Shown: positions 13,160 through 24,287 of the stretch, one piece after another
Layout: each line of letters begins with the position of its first letter
Position numbering within the stretch: the first letter of the stretch is position 1
NCBI GenBank assembly: GCA_016932575.1
Contig: JAFGCO010000047.1
Location: 1-24,482, forward strand
Length of the DNA: 24,482 nucleotides
Reading direction: 5' to 3'
Origin: a bacterium
GTDB lineage: Bacteria; Zhuqueibacterota; QNDG01; JAFGCO01
Translations under genes and position numbers: made by a program
Notes under the pieces: model-generated
Databases searched by the model: none
What the model was told of the DNA's origin: nothing
The model's input: the letters and a program-made list of their open reading frames with translations, nothing else

Positions 13160-13826
13160 ATATCTGTCGTTGAATTTATTGATTATTATCGGGCCTCTTC
13201 TGTTGAGTTTCGATCAAAAGGTTCGGTTTGTCAGATACTGGCCAAAAGCTCTGTCGAGTATCGTGCTGGTCATGATTCCTTTTCTTCTCTGGGATGCGGC
13301 AGTCAGCGGTCTCCACTGGCACTTCAATGAAAAATACACCCTTCCGTTCCGTTTTTTGGGCCTGCCTGCGGGCGAGATCCTTTTTTTCATTTCGGTCCCT
13401 TTCGCCTGCCTGTTCATCTGGCAGATCATTGTCACCCATCATAAGATCGTCTGGATAAATAATCATCAATGCTTATGGCTGTTTACGGGAGCCGGAATTT
13501 TATCGGGTCTTTTGTTCATACTGTGGGATAAGCCGTATACTTCCATTGTCTGTTTCGGGCTTGCATTGACAATAGGCATGGACAAACTGCTGAAAACGCA
13601 TATCCTCTCACAAAAAAGAATCTTTCTGTTTTTTATTATATTAACCGGTCTCATTCTTGTTTTTAACGGGTATTTAACGGCGCGGCCGGTGGTACTTTAC
13701 GACAGTCGTTATTTTTTAAATATCCGGATATGGACCATCCCGATTGAAGATTTCGCATACGGATATGCACTCATTTTATTGTGCACGATCGGTTTTGAAA
13801 AATTAAAAGGACGGTCTAATGCCTAA
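13149..13826 (+). CDS. Heterodimer-type (CrtYcd) lycopene cyclase-like membrane protein
   Basis: 225 residues from ATG 13149 (GTG 13143 is an alternative); the start overlaps the TPR-like gene by 11 bases. There are about six to seven membrane spans. Two halves each carry the lycopene-cyclase-domain motif: LGLPAGEILFFISVPFACLFIW in the first and WTIPIEDFAYGY in the second. WDAAVSGLHWHFNEKY is also typical. This is the fused CrtYc-CrtYd form found in Bacteroidota, which closes the beta ring on lycopene ends. The first-half motif, usually PxEE, is PAGE here. The second (PIED) keeps the acid pair. The last eight bases overlap the CrtD-like gene. Only one or two ends may be cyclised; the cluster content suggests one. 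Confidence 0.85.
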   Translation: MRIEYLSLNLLIIIGPLLLSFDQKVRFVRYWPKALSSIVLVMIPFLLWDAAVSGLHWHFNEKYTLPFRFLGLPAGEILFFISVPFACLFIWQIIVTHHKIVWINNHQCLWLFTGAGILSGLLFILWDKPYTSIVCFGLALTIGMDKLLKTHILSQKRIFLFFIILTGLILVFNGYLTARPVVLYDSRYFLNIRIWTIPIEDFAYGYALILLCTIGFEKLKGRSNA

Positions 13827-15303
13827 AAAAATCATCGTTATCGGAGGAGGGATCGGAGGGTTGAGCGGCGCGATCCGGCTTGCGAAAATGGGATACGATG
13901 TGCATCTGTATGAAAAAAATAAAATGCTTGGCGGAAAAATGGGCCGGATCTGCAGGGAAGGATTCACCTTTGATACAGGCCCCACACTGCTCACCATGCC
14001 CTTTGTGGTCGAAGAGCTGTTTCAATTTGCCGGTTTCGATGCTGCGGATATGCTGCAAATAACACCCGTCGAACCGGTCTGCCGGTATTTTTTCAGAGAT
14101 TCGGATCCGTTCGATGCCAGTGCCGATCAAAAAACAATGCAGCGAAACCTGATGAAACGGTTTCCGAAAGACATGGTCAATTATCAGCGTTTCATGCACT
14201 ACGCGGAACGTATTTACAATAAAACCGCACCGGTCTTTATTTTTTCACCGGTTCATGAAATCAGAAAACTCCTCAAATGGCAGGTTTTCCAAACCCTGCT
14301 GACCCTGTATCAAATCGATCCTTTCCGTACGGTGCATCAATCCGTAAAAAGGCATTTTCAGGATCCCCGGCTCGTTCAATTATTTGACCGGTATCCGACC
14401 TACAATGGATCGAATCCTTATCGAGCGCCCGCAACATTAAACGTGATTCCCTACGTTGAACTGGGACTCGGGGGGTATTATATCAAAGGAGGACTGTATT
14501 CACTCGTTGAATCGATGCAGAAAGCCGCGAAAACATTGAATGTCAAGATCCATACCGAAACTGAAGTCGAGCGTATTTGTCATGATAACCACCGGATTCA
14601 AGGGGTGAGTATCCATGGAGAAAAAATCGATGCGGATGCGGTGCTCTGCAATGCGGATGTTGTGACGAGCCATCACGATTTAATAGACGGGTTTCAAAAA
14701 AAAGCAAAGCGGCTGGGCCGGCTTGAACCTTCCCTTTCCGGATTGATTTTCTTTTGGGGGATCCGGGGAGAACATCCGAATCTCGGGCAGCATAATATAT
14801 TTTTCTCACAGGATTATCAAAAAGAGTTCACCCGGATATTTCAAGACCTGATCCCGTCTGAGGATCCGACAGTCTATGTATCGATTTCATCAAAATCGGA
14901 GTCCCGGCACGCACCCGAAGGATGTGAAAACTGGTTCGTCCTGGTCAATATGCCGTATTTAAATGAAAATCAGTCAGACGAAAATGAACTGACAAACCGG
15001 ATCCGTCAGGCAGTTCTTCAAAAACTGAAAACCTGCGGACTGGACATTGAAAAAAACATTCTTATTGAAAAAACCATCACACCCCGGGATATCGCGATCC
15101 GCTTTCGCAGCAATCGCGGCAGCATTTACGGGATTTCATCCAATACCCTGAATTCTGCATTTAAACGGCCGCCCAACCGCAGCCGGCAGCTGCGCGGACT
15201 TTATTTTGCAGGCGGGTCAACGCATCCGGGCGGAGGTGTGCCTATGTGTATGCTGTCAGGTAAAATCGCCGCCGAGTTGATCAATGAATTTGAAAGCCGC
15301 TGA
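13819..15303 (+). CDS. crtD: CrtD-like carotenoid desaturase (FAD-dependent)
   Basis: 494 residues. An N-terminal FAD-binding motif (VIGGGIGGLSGAIRLAKMG; G9, G11, G14) is followed by LGGKMGR and FDTGPTLLTMP. The middle carries NPYRAPATLNVIPYVELGLG and GGLYSLVESMQKAA, and the end LYFAGGSTHPGGGVPMCMLSG. The family is CrtI/CrtN/CrtD. The ending GGSxHPGGGxPxCxLSGK is more like CrtD (1-hydroxycarotenoid 3,4-desaturase) than phytoene desaturase, and a better CrtI lies immediately downstream. CrtD would add a double bond next to the hydroxyl made by the CruF-like protein encoded at the end of this cluster. A carotene ketolase or a second phytoene desaturase cannot be excluded. Start AAAAGGACGG-ATG overlaps the cyclase gene by eight bases. 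Confidence 0.85.
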   Translation: MPKKIIVIGGGIGGLSGAIRLAKMGYDVHLYEKNKMLGGKMGRICREGFTFDTGPTLLTMPFVVEELFQFAGFDAADMLQITPVEPVCRYFFRDSDPFDASADQKTMQRNLMKRFPKDMVNYQRFMHYAERIYNKTAPVFIFSPVHEIRKLLKWQVFQTLLTLYQIDPFRTVHQSVKRHFQDPRLVQLFDRYPTYNGSNPYRAPATLNVIPYVELGLGGYYIKGGLYSLVESMQKAAKTLNVKIHTETEVERICHDNHRIQGVSIHGEKIDADAVLCNADVVTSHHDLIDGFQKKAKRLGRLEPSLSGLIFFWGIRGEHPNLGQHNIFFSQDYQKEFTRIFQDLIPSEDPTVYVSISSKSESRHAPEGCENWFVLVNMPYLNENQSDENELTNRIRQAVLQKLKTCGLDIEKNILIEKTITPRDIAIRFRSNRGSIYGISSNTLNSAFKRPPNRSRQLRGLYFAGGSTHPGGGVPMCMLSGKIAAELINEFESR

Positions 15304-15340
15304 GTCGGCAGGCAATGAATTCTGAACAGGAGAGTTTTAA

Positions 15341-16819
15341 ATGAAAAAAATCGCGATCATCGGTTCCGGAATCGGCGGGCTGGCACTGGGTATACGTTTA
15401 CAGTCCCGGGGATTTCAGGTGACCCTATATGAAAAAAATGAAAAAATCGGCGGGCACGCTTATCCTCTGAAAAAAAACGGATACACCTTCGACATGGGTC
15501 CCTCTCTGATTACGGCTACTGAAATTCTCGAACGGCTTTTTCAATGCGCGGGCCGCCGCCTGTTTGATGACGTTAAAATGATAAAGCTCAATCCATTTTA
15601 CCGGATTTATTTTCATGACAAAAGCTTTCTGGATTATACCGACGATTCGGATAAGATGATGGAACAAATGGCTGCATTCAACAGGAAAGACGCAAAAAAT
15701 TATTTGAAATTCATTGAGGCTTCTAAAAAAATTCACGATGTGGTCATCGAACAGAGAGAGGGAACACGGCCCTTTCTGACGCCCTGGAGCATGCTGAGAT
15801 TTGCCCCTCGTGCCGTGAGCATGCGAGCCATGCTGTCAACCTACCGGTTCGCCTGCATGTATTTTCGTGATCCGCGGAACCGCTTTACTTTCAGTTTTCA
15901 TCCGCTGTTTATCGGCGGCAATCCATTCAGAGCCCCCGCCATCTACGAAATGATTCCTTATCTGGAAAAAACAGGCGGCGTCTGGTACAGCAAAGGCGGC
16001 ATGTATTCTCTGATCCGGGCCATGGGCAATGCCTTTCAGAAAGCCGGAGGAAAACTCATGCTGGATGCGGAAGTCAACAAAATCATCATTCAGGATAAAA
16101 AGGCCACAGGTATTCGGACAGGCAGTGAGGTCCACGAGGCTGATGCCATTGTATCGAATGCGGATTTTATTCACTCCTACCGGGATTTAATCGAACCTTC
16201 ACACAGAAAAAAATGGACCGACCGCAGGCTCGAACGGATCAAGTATTCCATGAGTGCTTTTCTGATTTACATGGGGGTTCGTAAAAAATATCCGCAGCTG
16301 CTTCATCATACTTTGATTCTCTCACATCGCTACAAACCGCTCATCCGGGACATTTTCGACTGCCATGTTCTGCCCGATGATTTTTCTATGTATCTGCACG
16401 TGCCGTCGCGCACCGAGCCCGCCATGGCCCCCGAAAACTGCGAAAGCATGTATGTGCTGGTACCGGTGACAAATCTGCAGGCCGGCGTGGACTGGGAACA
16501 CATCAAACAGAAATATGCAAAGAAAATTCTCGATTTTTTGGAACACAGTTTCGGATTACAGGGATTACAAAACGCTGTTGAGGTGCTTGAAATTTTTACG
16601 CCCCTGGATTTTCAGTCAAAACAAAACGCGGTTTACGGAAGTGCCTGGGGTGTCGAACCGCGGCTTTCTCAAACCGCGTATTTCAGGCCGCATAATCGAA
16701 GTGAAGACATCCCGAATCTCTATCTGGTGGGGGCCAGCACCCATCCGGGCGCGGGACTGCCCGGCTGTCTGCTGACCGCCGAGACCACTGAATCTATAAT
16801 TATAAAGGACCTTGTGTAA
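15341..16819 (+). CDS. crtI: Phytoene desaturase
   Basis: 492 residues. FAD/NAD-binding start AIIGSGIGGLALGIRLQSRG (G8, G10, G13), then KIGGHAYPLKKNGYTFDMGPS. The middle has FHPLFIGGNPFRAPAIYEMI and GGVWYSKGGMYSLI. The C-terminal signature NLYLVGASTHPGAGLPGCLL is classical bacterial CrtI. The enzyme converts phytoene to lycopene by successive desaturations at the membrane. AGGAGAG lies ten bases before the ATG. Its TAA shares one base with the ATG of the phytoene synthase gene (TAATG), so synthase and desaturase are probably translated in step. Confidence 0.93.
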   Translation: MKKIAIIGSGIGGLALGIRLQSRGFQVTLYEKNEKIGGHAYPLKKNGYTFDMGPSLITATEILERLFQCAGRRLFDDVKMIKLNPFYRIYFHDKSFLDYTDDSDKMMEQMAAFNRKDAKNYLKFIEASKKIHDVVIEQREGTRPFLTPWSMLRFAPRAVSMRAMLSTYRFACMYFRDPRNRFTFSFHPLFIGGNPFRAPAIYEMIPYLEKTGGVWYSKGGMYSLIRAMGNAFQKAGGKLMLDAEVNKIIIQDKKATGIRTGSEVHEADAIVSNADFIHSYRDLIEPSHRKKWTDRRLERIKYSMSAFLIYMGVRKKYPQLLHHTLILSHRYKPLIRDIFDCHVLPDDFSMYLHVPSRTEPAMAPENCESMYVLVPVTNLQAGVDWEHIKQKYAKKILDFLEHSFGLQGLQNAVEVLEIFTPLDFQSKQNAVYGSAWGVEPRLSQTAYFRPHNRSEDIPNLYLVGASTHPGAGLPGCLLTAETTESIIIKDLV

Positions 16820-17709
16820 TGATGAATATACAACTGGAACTCTGTCACAAATACAATCGACAGCTGCTCAAAGTGTATTCGAAAAGTTTTTTTATATCCA
16901 CACTTCTGCTGCCCCGCAGCCGGCGCAAAGCCGTCTACGCGCTGTATGGTTTCTGCCGGTTCATGGATAACCTGGTGGATAAACCCAGAGATCGGTCGAA
17001 AGAGGAGCTCATCCAGGAAATTCACGATCTGGAAAAGGAACTAAAGATCGCCTGCCGAACAGGCGAATCCGAACATCCGGTGCTCTGCTCTTTCATTCAT
17101 ATCGCCGGAAAGTATCGGATTCCGATAGAGCATCCGCTAGAACTTGTCAGGGGCATTTTAATGGATGTGGACCATCAGCATTATCAGACTTTTCAAGACC
17201 TCTATCTGTTTTGCCATCGCGTGGCCGGTGTGGTGGGATTGATGATGACGCATGTGCTCGGATACAGCAGCGACAAGGCCTTCGGTTATGCCGCCAAATT
17301 AGGCATTGCCATGCAACTGACCAATATCCTTCGTGATATTCAGGAAGATAAAAATAACGGCAGAATTTATCTGCCGCTGGATGAGATGGAAAAATTCAAC
17401 GTTCAGAAAACAGATATTCTGCAAGAAAATGTTACACCCGAATTGAAAAAACTGATTCGATTTTCCGTTGACCGCGCACACCGGTATTATCAGGAAGCCA
17501 GTCCGGGTATTGAAATGCTGACCCCGCAGTGCCGGTTCGCCATTTATTCGGCAAGCGACATTTACAGAAATATCCTGCATGAAATCGAAAGCAATGATTA
17601 CAATCCCTTTCTGGGCCGTGTCTATGTTACCCAGGTAAAAAAGACCGGGATTATTCTTTCCAATTATTTCCGGGAAAAATTGAGCAGGAACCGTCGACAG
17701 CATGATTGA
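16819..17709 (+). CDS. crtB: Phytoene synthase
   Basis: 296 residues, all-alpha prenyl-synthase fold. Both Asp-rich magnesium sites are present: FMDNLVDKPRD (D50-x3-D54) and NILRDIQEDKNNGRIYLP (D173-x3-D177), with AMQLTNILRD as in squalene/phytoene synthases. SKSFFISTLLLP and AVYALYGFCR are typical of the N-terminal half. It joins two geranylgeranyl diphosphates to phytoene. No geranylgeranyl diphosphate synthase lies in the window, so the precursor must come from elsewhere. ATG 16819 and ATG 16822 are both possible starts. The last eight bases overlap the acyltransferase gene. Confidence 0.95.
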   Translation: MMNIQLELCHKYNRQLLKVYSKSFFISTLLLPRSRRKAVYALYGFCRFMDNLVDKPRDRSKEELIQEIHDLEKELKIACRTGESEHPVLCSFIHIAGKYRIPIEHPLELVRGILMDVDHQHYQTFQDLYLFCHRVAGVVGLMMTHVLGYSSDKAFGYAAKLGIAMQLTNILRDIQEDKNNGRIYLPLDEMEKFNVQKTDILQENVTPELKKLIRFSVDRAHRYYQEASPGIEMLTPQCRFAIYSASDIYRNILHEIESNDYNPFLGRVYVTQVKKTGIILSNYFREKLSRNRRQHD

Positions 17710-18415
17710 AGCATCACATAAAAAATGGGCGGATCTGATTTTTCATCCTTATTTGCATGGACTGCTGAATCATCATTTTTATGCGGTCCATCTGTTCGGG
17801 CCGGTACCGGACATTCAGCCGCTCAGGCCATTATTGGTATTGCCGAATCACAGCTCATGGTGGGACGGATTTTTTATTTATCTGCTGAACAAAAAACGTC
17901 TGCATCGCAAAATCTATCTCATGATGCTGGAACGGCAATTGAAACAAAACCGGTTCTTCCGATTTCTGGGCGCGTATTCGATTGCTCCCGATCACGCGAA
18001 AGGAGTCAAACGCTCCCTTGAATATACCATGGATCTGCTGAAGAGGCAGAATGAACCGACACTGATTTGCTTTTTTCCACAGGGAAAATTGCTGCCCTGG
18101 CACATCAGGCCGGTTCATTTTGGGAGAGGCCTTGAATTTATTTTCAATCGAATTGAAAATGAAATTCAACTCTGTTTTCTGGGCATCCGGATCGAATTCC
18201 TCGAGCAGCAGCGGCCGGAAGTGTTTATGGAATTATCTCCGCTCAAAATCATCCGTCCGAAAAGTGATTTTTCACTGTCTGAATTTGAATCGGAATTCAA
18301 CATATTTTTGGACCGGCTCGAAAGAAGAATTGTCAAGGGAGATCATGGCAGCCGGCTCTTTCAGGGAAAAAAATCAATCAATGAACAGGTCCGGATGTTC
18401 GGAAAATGTGATTAA
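17702..18415 (+). CDS. PlsC-type acyltransferase of the carotenoid cluster
   Basis: 237 residues. The lysophospholipid acyltransferase (AGPAT/PlsC) fold shows LPNHSSWWDGFFIYLL (H50 and D55 of the HxxxxD catalytic pair), then IYLMMLERQL, FFRFLGAYSI and ICFFPQGKLLPW in place of the common FPEGT. As I recall, FPQG is normal for the branch found in carotenoid clusters of Rhodothermus/Bacteroidota-type genomes. It has no obvious membrane span. The gene overlaps crtB by eight bases and lies 30 bases before a GT2 glycosyltransferase, so the likely acceptor is the sugar of a carotenoid glycoside. A glycerolipid acceptor is the alternative. Confidence 0.85.
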   Translation: MIEASHKKWADLIFHPYLHGLLNHHFYAVHLFGPVPDIQPLRPLLVLPNHSSWWDGFFIYLLNKKRLHRKIYLMMLERQLKQNRFFRFLGAYSIAPDHAKGVKRSLEYTMDLLKRQNEPTLICFFPQGKLLPWHIRPVHFGRGLEFIFNRIENEIQLCFLGIRIEFLEQQRPEVFMELSPLKIIRPKSDFSLSEFESEFNIFLDRLERRIVKGDHGSRLFQGKKSINEQVRMFGKCD

Positions 18416-18445
18416 ACAACGCATATTCCTTGAGGTTATCATTCG

Positions 18446-19558
18446 TTGATCATTTTTATTTACTGCATACTGGGTTTTCTCGGTATTGTCCTGTGTGTGA
18501 CGGTTTTCAATGCCTGTACAGCACCTATGCTGAAACACGGTCCTGAATCTTATAAACAGGACCGCATTTCCTTTTTAATTCCCGTCCGTAATGAAGGCCG
18601 GAACATTCAGGGATGCCTTGAATCGCTTCTTGATCAGGCCTATCCCCGCTTTGAAATTCTGATTCTCGACGACCATTCATCGGATGATACAGCAGAACGC
18701 GTTCAAAATGTCGCACGCCGCGATTCTCGTATCCGATACATTCGGGGAAAAGACCTGCCTGAAAAATGGACCGGAAAAAACTGGGCCTGTCATCAATTGG
18801 GTCAGCATGCGAAAGGTGATATATTTATATTCACGGATGCGGACAATCGATACACGCGAAGTGCCGGCCTCAAGACCGTAGGATGGATGCGTAAACTGAA
18901 TCTGGATATGTTTTCCGCATTTCCCCAGCAGTATACGCTGACACTTGCGGAAAAATTGGTTGTCCCTTCTGTGTACATGACAGTTTACTGCTATCTGCCG
19001 CTGTGGCTGACCTGCCTGCTTCCTTATCCTTCTCTGGCAGCCGCCAACGGGCAATGGATCGCCTTTACCCGGGAGGCGTATCAAAAACTGGGCGGCCATG
19101 AGGCGGCAAAAAATCAAATTGTCGAAGATACCTGGCTGGCCCGCTTTGCCAAAAAAAACCGCATGAAAGTCCTGACATCCCCGGGAACCGGGGCGGTTTA
19201 TGGTCGCATGTATCATCACTGGACCGATATCTGGCAGGGATTTTCAAAAAATTTATTCGGCTTGATGGATTATCATATCATTCCGTTCTGCATCTTGCTT
19301 TTATGGATGCTGATAGGATATGTCTGTCCCTATGTTTTTCTGTTTCATCCGCTTTGGATAAAAGCCGCCGGCAGTGCGGTTGCTCTGAACATCGTCATGC
19401 GTTCGATTCTTGCATTGAAATACAAAGATCCGTGGATCACGATTCTCCTGCATCCGCTGGCCATTCTGCTGACCATCGCCATCGGATTGAATTCGATCCG
19501 TGTGTTTAAGCAGGGAAAACTGAAATGGAAAGGTCGAACGATCAGTCGTTCAACATGA
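18446..19558 (+). CDS. GT2 glycosyltransferase, CrtQ/CruG-like
   Basis: 370 residues from TTG 18446, chosen because the next in-frame ATG (18530 region) would remove the N-terminal membrane span (IYCILGFLGIVLCVTVF) and TGAGGTT sits upstream. The GT-A domain has ISFLIPVRNEGRNI, ILDDHSSDDTAE, LPEKWTGKNWACHQLG, FTDADN (D131-x-D133), VEDTWLARFA (E227-D228) and WQGFSKNLF. Two to three membrane spans lie at the C-terminus. This layout matches CrtQ (staphyloxanthin) and CruG (myxoxanthophyll) families. Adjacency to a CruF-like gene repeats the cyanobacterial cruF-cruG pairing and points to glycosylation of the hydroxylated carotenoid end. Sugar donor unknown. Confidence 0.87.
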   Translation: MIIFIYCILGFLGIVLCVTVFNACTAPMLKHGPESYKQDRISFLIPVRNEGRNIQGCLESLLDQAYPRFEILILDDHSSDDTAERVQNVARRDSRIRYIRGKDLPEKWTGKNWACHQLGQHAKGDIFIFTDADNRYTRSAGLKTVGWMRKLNLDMFSAFPQQYTLTLAEKLVVPSVYMTVYCYLPLWLTCLLPYPSLAAANGQWIAFTREAYQKLGGHEAAKNQIVEDTWLARFAKKNRMKVLTSPGTGAVYGRMYHHWTDIWQGFSKNLFGLMDYHIIPFCILLLWMLIGYVCPYVFLFHPLWIKAAGSAVALNIVMRSILALKYKDPWITILLHPLAILLTIAIGLNSIRVFKQGKLKWKGRTISRST

Positions 19559-20247
19559 CCCAAATGAAAAAAAACCACCTGAAAATAATCTGTCTTTATA
19601 TCCTGTTCGGATTCGGCGGACTGTGGCATGTGCTGAACTGGTTTCAGCCGGCCATGCAAATTCTGGCGTCTCCCCTTATCATTGGCGTCTCCCTTCTGCT
19701 GGCATTTGAAGGTTTCAGATCGCTTTCCCGTACATTGAAACGCGGATATCTTTTGTGGTGTATCATTATGCTTCTAAGCGGATTTGGAATCGAGGTCCTG
19801 GGTGTGCATTACCGGTTTCCTTTTGGCCGTTATCAGTACGGACAAGTGCTCAAACCGCAAATTTTTCAGGTTCCGGTTGCGATAGGCTTTGCCTGGCTGC
19901 TGATTTGTCTATCCTCTTATATGCTGGCCTGCAGAATCACACTGCATAATAAAATGAAAAAGAATCACCACAATATTCTGATCCCTTTTGTTACGGCTGC
20001 ATTCATGGTTCTTTTTGACCTGATTATGGAAATGGCGGCTCCCGGACTGGGATATTGGCACTGGACCAGTCAAACGGTACCGGTGAAAAATTATCTCTCC
20101 TGGTTTGTGCTGGGCATGCTGTTTTCATGGCTCGGGCTGAAGTTAAATATCACATTCAAACTGGATTCGGCACTGGGAATGCATGTGTACGCTTCGCAAA
20201 TGATTTACTTCATCCTGTCATTATTCAAATCTGCCCGTGTCCTGTAG
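19525..20247 (+). CDS. cruF: CruF-like carotenoid 1',2'-hydratase (DUF422 family)
   Basis: 240 residues with about six to seven membrane spans. Family motifs seen are SGFGIEVLGVHYRFPFGRYQYG (E90), QVPVAIGFAWL, FDLIMEMAAPGLGYWHW (D165, E169) and LDSALGMHVYASQMIYF. The DUF422 family includes CruF, which adds water to the psi end of monocyclic carotenes, and bisanhydrobacterioruberin-type hydratases. ATG 19525 has AGGG upstream and overlaps the GT2 gene by 34 bases. ATG 19555 overlaps only by ATGA and is an equally plausible start. It is the last gene of the carotenoid run; 20248-20392 is AT-rich and shows no convincing terminator. Confidence 0.88.
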   Translation: MERSNDQSFNMTQMKKNHLKIICLYILFGFGGLWHVLNWFQPAMQILASPLIIGVSLLLAFEGFRSLSRTLKRGYLLWCIIMLLSGFGIEVLGVHYRFPFGRYQYGQVLKPQIFQVPVAIGFAWLLICLSSYMLACRITLHNKMKKNHHNILIPFVTAAFMVLFDLIMEMAAPGLGYWHWTSQTVPVKNYLSWFVLGMLFSWLGLKLNITFKLDSALGMHVYASQMIYFILSLFKSARVL

Positions 20248-22930: not shown

Positions 22931-22987
22931 AAGCGTCGCCGCTTGAAATAATCATTTTCAATATCTGTTTTTAATTCAGTTTTCACA

Positions 22988-23030
22988 GAAAATCCCCATT
23001 CCGGCCTACTTGATCCAGATGGGGATTTTC
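22988..23030. terminator. Strong bidirectional terminator
   Basis: GAAAATCCCCAT (22988-22999) pairs perfectly with ATGGGGATTTTC (23019-23030) around a 19-base loop. The TTTT of the right arm and AAAA of the left arm allow termination on either strand. It closes the lipoprotein gene before the AT-rich promoter region. Confidence 0.85.
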
Positions 23031-23154
23031 TTTAATCCCTGATCCGCAGGTTCTTCCTTGAATGGACATGTGAACCATTCGGATTTTTTTCGCAAATAGA
23101 TTTCTCACTCTAAATTAATTATTTTAATCTTAATATTAATTTATTTAATTTATA

Positions 23155-23183
23155 TTGACTTTACAATGAAACTTATTTATATT
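23155..23183 (+). promoter_or_regulatory. Sigma70-type promoter with AT-rich upstream element
   Basis: TTGACT (23155-23160) and TATATT (23178-23183) are separated by exactly 17 bases. Upstream, 23110-23154 is almost pure A/T and could be an UP element. Transcription would begin near 23190 and leave a leader of about 30 bases before ATG 23222. If the organism uses a Bacteroidota-type primary sigma factor the boxes could be misleading. Confidence 0.65.
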
Positions 23184-23203
23184 TACCGCGTAAATATAAA
23201 TAA
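23173..23203. promoter_or_regulatory. Perfect 14-bp dyad over the -10 box and start site (operator)
   Basis: TTATTTATATTTAC (23173-23186) and GTAAATATAAATAA (23190-23203) are exact complements around a CGC centre. A second nested pair, TTGACTTT (23155-23162) and AAAGTCAA (23203-23210), brackets it and includes the -35 box. A dimeric repressor here would block RNA polymerase; the obvious candidate is the HTH protein encoded 19 bases downstream. Confidence 0.7.
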
Positions 23204-23221
23204 AAGTCAAAGAGGCAATTC

Positions 23222-23590
23222 ATGACACAATCCTGGTACACTCTGTCCAAACTGGTTCAAGACGAAGAGATCATCGTAGAGCGCATCCGGGTAAAACAAA
23301 CAGGGATTGCGGTTGAAGGTGAATTTGAACTGCCGCCGCTTTCTCAGCTGACCGAAGAAGACCAGATGTTTGTCGCCGCGTTTATCCGGTGCCACGGCTC
23401 GATTAAGGAAATGGAAACCCTGTTCGGTGTCAGCTACCCCACCATTAAAAACCGACTCAACCGCATTGGCCGGCTGCTCAATTTTGTCGAAATCAATCCT
23501 CCGGTGATCAGGGAGGATGTGCTGGAGAAACTCGAAAAAGGAGAAATTAACGTAGATGAAGCCGAAAAGATGTTAAGGGGGCGCACATGA
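23222..23590 (+). CDS. DUF2089-type helix-turn-helix regulator
   Basis: 122 residues. The core VEGEFELPPLSQLTEEDQMFV with AAFIRCHGSIKEMETLFGVSYPTIKNRLNRI is the DUF2089 signature, with a helix-turn-helix at about 60-84. Typical members begin with a four-Cys zinc ribbon. Here the first 30 residues (MTQSWYTLSKLVQDEEIIVE) contain no cysteine, so the metal site is lost. The C-terminus (about 98-119, VLEKLEKGEINVDEAEKML) matches the N-terminal SHOCT-like helices of the third protein in this unit. AGAGG lies six bases before the ATG. Its stop overlaps the next start (ATGA). It probably represses its own operon through the dyad at the promoter; that is inference. Confidence 0.88.
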   Translation: MTQSWYTLSKLVQDEEIIVERIRVKQTGIAVEGEFELPPLSQLTEEDQMFVAAFIRCHGSIKEMETLFGVSYPTIKNRLNRIGRLLNFVEINPPVIREDVLEKLEKGEINVDEAEKMLRGRT

Positions 23591-23862
23591 TACCCTGTTG
23601 GATGCAAATGAAGATTCCAAAAAAAAATGAGACTCCGGCAACACTCACCATTCCGATTTTTATCTTATGGATTTTGCTGTTTATGGTATTGGTCCTGATT
23701 TTGCCGGTCTGGCTGATCGCCTCTTTCATACTGATCCTCGCCGGTTACGGCTGGACCGGATTTCTCACTTTGGGTCTTTTGTGTCAGGTCTTCTGGACCC
23801 TGCAGGGCCTTGAAGTGGATGTAAAAACAAAAGATATCACAGTGTATTTCAAGTTAATCTGA
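23587..23862 (+). CDS. Small membrane protein in the DUF2089 unit
   Basis: 91 residues. The short cytoplasmic N-terminus is followed by two closely packed membrane spans (about 22-45 and 46-72: IFILWILLFMVLVLILPVWLI, FILILAGYGWTGFLTLGLL). A C-terminal beta-like tail (LEVDVKTKDITVYFKLI) comes last. Translation is coupled to the regulator by an ATGA overlap, with AAGGGGG upstream. I recognise no named family. Similar small membrane proteins accompany YvlB-like genes in other bacteria, where the set is linked to envelope stress. Confidence 0.8.
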   Translation: MIPCWMQMKIPKKNETPATLTIPIFILWILLFMVLVLILPVWLIASFILILAGYGWTGFLTLGLLCQVFWTLQGLEVDVKTKDITVYFKLI

Positions 23863-23873
23863 AGGAGTACAAC

Positions 23874-24287
23874 ATGAGCAATGAAAAAAAACGCATCCTT
23901 GAGATGTTATCGCAAAACAAAATCAATGTGGATGAGGCTGAACGGCTCCTGGCTGCCATTGAAGAGCCATCCGATGGCACCAATGCCAATCCTGAAAAGA
24001 AAATGCTGAAATACCTGCGCGTTCTGGTAGAGCCAATCGGTCCGGATTCAAAAGGCGACCGGGTGAATGTACGCATTCCCATGAATCTGATCCGGGCGGG
24101 GCTGAAATGGATCAGTCTGATTCCGAAAGAGGCCCGGGGCAAGGTCGAAAGCGCACTGAATGATAAAGGAATCGATATGGATTTCAAAAAGCTCAGGCCC
24201 GAAGATTTTGAAGAAATTCTTTTCAATCTGAATGACTTACAGGTCGAAGTGGACGGCGGGGAAAAAGTGCGGGTGTTCTGCGAATAA
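23874..24287 (+). CDS. SHOCT-like domain protein (YvlB N-terminal-like)
   Basis: 137 residues, soluble. The first 30 residues (KKRILEMLSQNKINVDEAERLLAAIE) are a SHOCT-like helical hairpin as found at the start of YvlB/LiaX-type proteins. About 47-90 has YLRVLVEPIG and VNVRIPMNLIRAGLKW, the beta/helix motif of the same family. The end (FNLNDLQVEVDGGEKVRVFCE) resembles the start of the beta-helical adhesin-like part that full-length YvlB carries, but that part is absent. GAAGGAG precedes the ATG; the gap from the membrane protein is 11 bases. Probable envelope-stress or regulatory partner of the DUF2089 protein. Confidence 0.82.
   Translation: MSNEKKRILEMLSQNKINVDEAERLLAAIEEPSDGTNANPEKKMLKYLRVLVEPIGPDSKGDRVNVRIPMNLIRAGLKWISLIPKEARGKVESALNDKGIDMDFKKLRPEDFEEILFNLNDLQVEVDGGEKVRVFCE

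Follow-up and report, generated by a model that had tools for sequence, protein, structure and literature searches.

Proteins of the DUF2089 family, in which PF09862 is joined to a PF22747 zinc ribbon and a PF22746 SHOCT-like domain, have been described as uncharacterised ZnR-HTH-SHOCT proteins encoded in PSP/Lia-like membrane-stress neighbourhoods (Ravi et al. 2024, PMC11237479), and the family has also been treated as having an HTH fold (PMC2686095). The parts of these two papers drawn on here give no DNA site for DUF2089. A preliminary description of the present locus had stated that no operator was known for these proteins, and this agrees with the literature searched (subscription papers and preprints lay outside the search), which contained no published DUF2089 operator or target and no match to the ATTAATnnnATTAAT array described below; queries with the exact sequence returned unrelated papers only.

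The window considered here is the whole stretch of 24,482 nucleotides, and the genes of interest lie on its forward strand close to the end of the contig. The first of them (23222..23590) encodes a DUF2089 HTH regulator of 122 aa that matches PF09862 with an E-value of 1.1e-18 and 67.1 bits (cut-off 33.4), a family matched by all 35 of its 35 aligned relatives as well. The second (23587..23862) begins on the stop codon of the first, with an overlap of 4 bp, and encodes a hydrophobic protein of 91 aa that is probably a membrane protein; it matches no Pfam family and is found in the same position in many relatives. The third (23874..24287), shortly past which the contig ends, has a product of 137 aa whose N-terminal SHOCT-like domain (PF22746, E 7.8e-8) scores over the cut-off and is homologous to the C-terminus of the regulator, which itself matches PF22746 at E 5e-4 and 20 bits, below the 27-bit cut-off. 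By Pfam, neither the second nor the third gene encodes a PspA, PspC, LiaI-LiaF-TM or Toastrack domain.

The AlphaFold model of the regulator (pLDDT 84) has an N-terminal beta hairpin and two C-terminal helices, the latter forming a putative bihelical SHOCT-like domain. The hairpin resembles a zinc ribbon without cysteines, there being no CxxC in the window's regulator, and the PF22747 zinc ribbon was matched in only one of the 35 relatives. The HTH segment, GVSYPTIKNRLNRI, is nearly invariant among relatives. A fold search with the regulator yielded nothing beyond weak similarity to LuxR-type HTH domains and to sigma region 4; among solved structures there was no sequence relative of meaningful E-value, and the search of viral_contigs found no relative. 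The succession regulator, probable membrane protein, SHOCT-like protein recurs in both other members of the order whose genomes carry a close DUF2089 relative, and the operon, whole or minus its middle gene, is present in relatives labelled Acidobacteriota/Aminicenantes, Zixibacteria, Latescibacterota, Spirochaetota, Chloroflexi, Planctomycetota and Actinomycetota. Within the window's phylum the family occurs in just 4 genomes out of 82, and the operon has therefore probably spread by transfer.

Several other features of the window may be recorded here. A carotenoid gene cluster (13819-20247) comprises two phytoene desaturase-like oxidoreductases, a phytoene synthase (PF00494), an acyltransferase-like ORF, a family 2 glycosyltransferase and a Caroten_synth protein (PF04240), and a DNA photolyase (PF00875; 11198-12550) lies near it, making this a light-protection neighbourhood. 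The ORF at the start of the contig (10-1617) contains repeated units of about 80 residues (VDLVAGSNITITPDD...), which suggest a surface or fibre-like protein. The gene before the regulator probably has its terminator at 22976-23042, where AAAATCCCCAT...ATGGGGATTTT forms an imperfect inverted repeat that runs into CTTT; the 19-nt loop is too long for the scanner.

Upstream of the regulator there is a pair of near-identical 15-bp palindromes of the form ATTAATnnnATTAAT, set exactly 21 bp apart at 23114-23149. The first unit, ATTAATTATTTTAAT (23114..23128, + strand), reads as the palindrome ATTAAT-TAT-TTTAAT, and the second, ATTAATTTATTTAAT (23135..23149, + strand), as ATTAAT-TTA-TTTAAT; each agrees with ATTAATnnnATTAAT at 11 of 12 positions, and together they are the two best matches to it within the window. 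Their TTAA half-sites begin at 23115, 23124, 23136 and 23145, an exact 9-12-9 spacing. A tandem of such units at 21 bp appeared in none of 3000 shuffles (0/3000), and the array is the sole site in the window for the four-half-site pattern H5H8H5H; the 4.4-Mb genome holds two copies of that pattern, of which only the one at 23114-23149 is free of a TCGA half-site. The array lies just upstream of the coordinates given in the preliminary description, which had rightly placed a candidate DUF2089 operator ahead of this gene and had named the wrong sequence for it, the conserved element being 23114-23149.

That conservation was assessed from 86 DUF2089 upstream regions, among which arrays of TTAA, TCAA and TTGA half-sites are shared and the 14-bp dyad discussed below is not. 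Motif searches by EM, in which 48 actinobacterial regions were treated apart from 33 others, returned.TTAAGAAAATTAAGATCaAC.TCTTGAAAGTTgAa and ATTAATAtTaTtAATaTa.aaaTTGACATTaTTAAT, respectively, motifs of the same geometry, with likelihoods of 1477 vs about 122 and 377 vs about 87 for dinucleotide shuffles. The spectrum of half-site spacings peaks at 9, 21, 12 and 30/31 bp. Outside the actinobacteria the 9-bp spacing was seen 58 times against 4.5 expected and the 21-bp spacing 45 times against 4.1; in the actinobacteria the corresponding figures are 41 against 0.9 and 42 against 0.8, so that both spacings reach at least 10 times the shuffled expectation in both groups. Half-sites fall at -21, -12, 0 and +9 relative to the -35 box outside the actinobacteria and at -23, -14 and +7 within them; the 9/21 geometry of the putative operator is constant, and what has shifted from one group to the other, by 2 bp, is the -35 box.

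In 229 kb of non-actinobacterial locus DNA, all 13 of the 13 H5H8H5H sites (each counted on both strands, the pattern being symmetric) lie ahead of DUF2089 genes, as do 31 of the 32 sites of the three-site pattern H5H17H in actinobacterial loci. The exact four-site pattern is present in just 13 of the 33 non-actinobacterial loci and H5H17H in 17 of the 33; at locus L002, half-sites are extra or shifted. Spirochaete DUF2089 genes of the zinc-ribbon type, no more than distant relatives, share the spacings of 21 (z 9.9), 30 (z 6.0), 12 (z 5.7) and 9 bp (z 4.5) in a set of 10 loci unfiltered for relatedness, and one of them, L140, has the exact four-site pattern, so the association with the array seems to belong to the DUF2089 family, beyond the window's own branch. 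Several relatives (upstream regions of L016, L067 and L088) have another TTAA pair close to the ribosome binding site, at the enriched position +41 from the -35 box, which may be a third operator unit.

Transfer of position weight matrices (PWMs) by score between the groups was set aside: the sharp actinobacterial PWM failed on other phyla, scoring above shuffles at just 5 of their 34 loci, and in the opposite direction the test passed, but so did the reversed PWM, because an AT-rich island in GC-rich DNA is enough to satisfy it. Our conclusions therefore rest on the statistics of half-site spacing and on counts across genomes, and what the groups have in common is the spacing, not the exact word.

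In each of ten actinobacterial genomes (5.6-12.3 Mb) the actinobacterial profile finds one strong site (E 7e-7 to 4e-10), and this is always the DUF2089 promoter; one of the ten has an additional marginal match (E 0.6), and in two more genomes, whose sites had not gone into the profile, there was one partial match (E 0.24) and no match, respectively. With the non-actinobacterial profile, the DUF2089 site is the sole, nearly the sole or the best match in GC-rich genomes of other phyla, while in AT-rich genomes more than the profile is needed to pick it out, the site scoring 10.7 bits (E 4) among 30 matches in the window's own genome. These counts bear on two other ways of reading the array. It is AT-rich and directly upstream of the window's -35 box, as would suit an UP element or curved DNA for RNA polymerase or nucleoid proteins, but the fixed spacings of 9, 12 and 21 bp far exceed those of shuffles, the relatives' array reaches past the start of the -35 box (to +7 or +9), and actinobacterial genomes, with their G+C content of about 70%, contain it a single time, at the DUF2089 gene; we regard this reading as very improbable. 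That another regulator, for instance a response regulator of the OmpR/PhoP type, binds the array and controls the DUF2089 operon is suggested by a superficial likeness of TTAA-N5-TTAA to PhoP-type sites, which are TTAA-like direct repeats; this too we think very unlikely, given that the spacing alternates between 9 and 12 rather than holding at 11, and that a single site in each genome, always before this gene although the phyla are many and the spread is patchy and transfer-like, points to the gene's own product. Because the site accompanies the gene from phylum to phylum and the HTH hardly varies, we infer that the operon's own DUF2089 protein is the binder.

The preliminary description had instead offered a different dyad as the operator. 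A perfect 14-bp inverted repeat, TTATTTATATTTAC (23173-23186) and GTAAATATAAATAA (23190-23203) around CGC, does indeed cover the -10 box and the presumed start site, and it is the longest perfect short-loop dyad in the whole 24.5-kb window; no arm of 14 bp arose in 3000 dinucleotide-preserving shuffles (0/3000) of 23091-23222, a segment of 20% G+C, the longest shuffled arm being 13. Its perfection and its position over the -10 box and start would fit a repressor site for DUF2089 in this species, and other loci have possible counterparts: a weak TTATAC-N5-GTATAA at a similar place in L002, only TTTACTGTAT at about that place in L003, and, in the AT-rich actinomycete locus L022, a 12-bp dyad that starts at the same distance from its own -35 box. 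The comparison of upstream regions that had been proposed as a check was decisive, however: nearly all relatives with the same operon, orthologues of identical gene order among them, are without the dyad, and a conserved TTTAC-CGC-GTAAA operator is thereby contradicted. Dyad symmetry is not enriched at that place in the relatives' upstream regions, and within this genome the motif does not recur, WTTTACNNNGTAAAW with one mismatch allowed being found 87 times vs 198 for the reversed control and so rarer than the control; moreover, the nearly invariant recognition helix goes with a different sequence. We consider it very unlikely that DUF2089 binds here, and take the dyad to be a real, lineage-specific addition. 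An RNA hairpin was also considered for it and rejected because the transcript would hold the right arm alone.

An outer 8-bp pair, TTGACTTT (23155-23162) and AAAGTCAA (23203-23210), was likewise present as described, perfect and with 40 nt separating its arms (23155..23210 in all), though pairs of this kind are at chance level, about 1.2 being expected in the region. The 52-bp distance from its TTGA to its TCAA was compared with an enriched spacing of 52/53 bp in the relatives and the connection was rejected, because that enrichment has another source than a site at +52 from the -35 box. Downstream of the box it is +41 that is enriched, and we therefore treat the outer pair as chance.

The promoter itself was accurately described, with its -35 box TTGACT (23155..23160, + strand) and -10 box TATATT (23178..23183, + strand) separated by a 17-bp spacer, and transcription would be expected to start near 23190. 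Promoter-like matches are no more frequent than chance (1 found vs 1.7 expected), although a similar promoter, similarly spaced from the DUF2089 gene, is present in relatives. In L003 and most relatives the second operator unit holds the -35 box, the TTGA of which serves as one of its half-sites. The window differs in having its two units wholly before the -35 box, the tandem being about 19 bp further upstream than in relatives, with a degenerate third unit, TTGACTTTACAAT, over the box itself; this shift is the main difference of the window's site from those of its relatives.

Taken together, the array at 23114-23149 is best explained as an autoregulatory operator of the downstream DUF2089 regulator, probably a repressing one, and we put the probability of this at roughly 0.7. 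The regulator would mainly control its own three-gene operon through this site. Because the 21 bp between the palindromes amount to two turns of the helix, a pair of regulator dimers could bind next to each other along the same face, in contact with the -35 region, and the bound regulator would then block RNA polymerase in negative autoregulation. Repression seems the most likely outcome because the -35 box lies inside the second palindrome in most relatives and the promoter is near-consensus; in the window, where the tandem is about 19 bp farther away, occlusion of the -35 box would be less direct and the sign of regulation is less certain.

Near-consensus -35 and -10 boxes are usually missing from activator-dependent promoters, and their presence in most relatives weighs against the converse possibility, that DUF2089 binds the conserved array and activates its own operon as a class II activator in contact with RNA polymerase at -35, in the manner of HTH proteins of the LuxR/NarL type. 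The operator is centred near -41 in the relatives and lies wholly upstream of -35 in the window, positions that would suit an activator, as would the weak resemblance of the HTH to sigma region 4 and LuxR-type domains and the report of the C-terminus of NarL as a relative (PMC2686095). Activation is the less likely sign, yet one to be taken seriously.

In the simplest model, the products of the second and third genes would release the regulator from the DNA, or tether it at the membrane, through SHOCT-SHOCT contacts, with the state of the envelope as the signal and the third protein competing for the regulator or tethering it. It is conceivable, at somewhat less than even odds, that DUF2089 proteins in general, zinc-ribbon and cysteine-free alike and in many phyla, are dedicated single-target autoregulators acting on tandem ATTAATnnnATTAAT sites whose 9/21-bp geometry stayed fixed as the promoter slid, their SHOCT-like tails forming a membrane-linked on/off switch with a SHOCT-like partner encoded in the operon. 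For a widespread family of predicted regulators, an operator that crosses phyla would make function directly testable; the main target would be the family's own operon with its membrane protein and SHOCT-like partner, and the vague link of DUF2089 to envelope stress would become a concrete circuit.

Compared with the proteins in the relevant part of PMC11237479, the system has in common an HTH, a putative SHOCT-like C-terminus, a small, probable membrane protein with a SHOCT-like partner and a predicted transcriptional output; it differs in that its zinc ribbon is without cysteines and its partners, by Pfam, are without Toastrack, PspC or LiaI-LiaF domains. The TTGA/TCAA half-sites near -41 recall boxes of the FNR/CRP type (TTGAT-N4-ATCAA), but the half-site spacing is 9 and not 10, there are two units 21 bp apart, and the DUF2089 operon encodes no FNR/CRP-type protein. 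As in autoregulatory operators with tandem palindromes spaced by two helical turns, the units are in phase, overlap or abut the -35 box of their own gene and occur as one site per genome, while the ATTAATnnnATTAAT sequence and the 9/12/9 spacing of its half-sites set this array apart from such operators in general.
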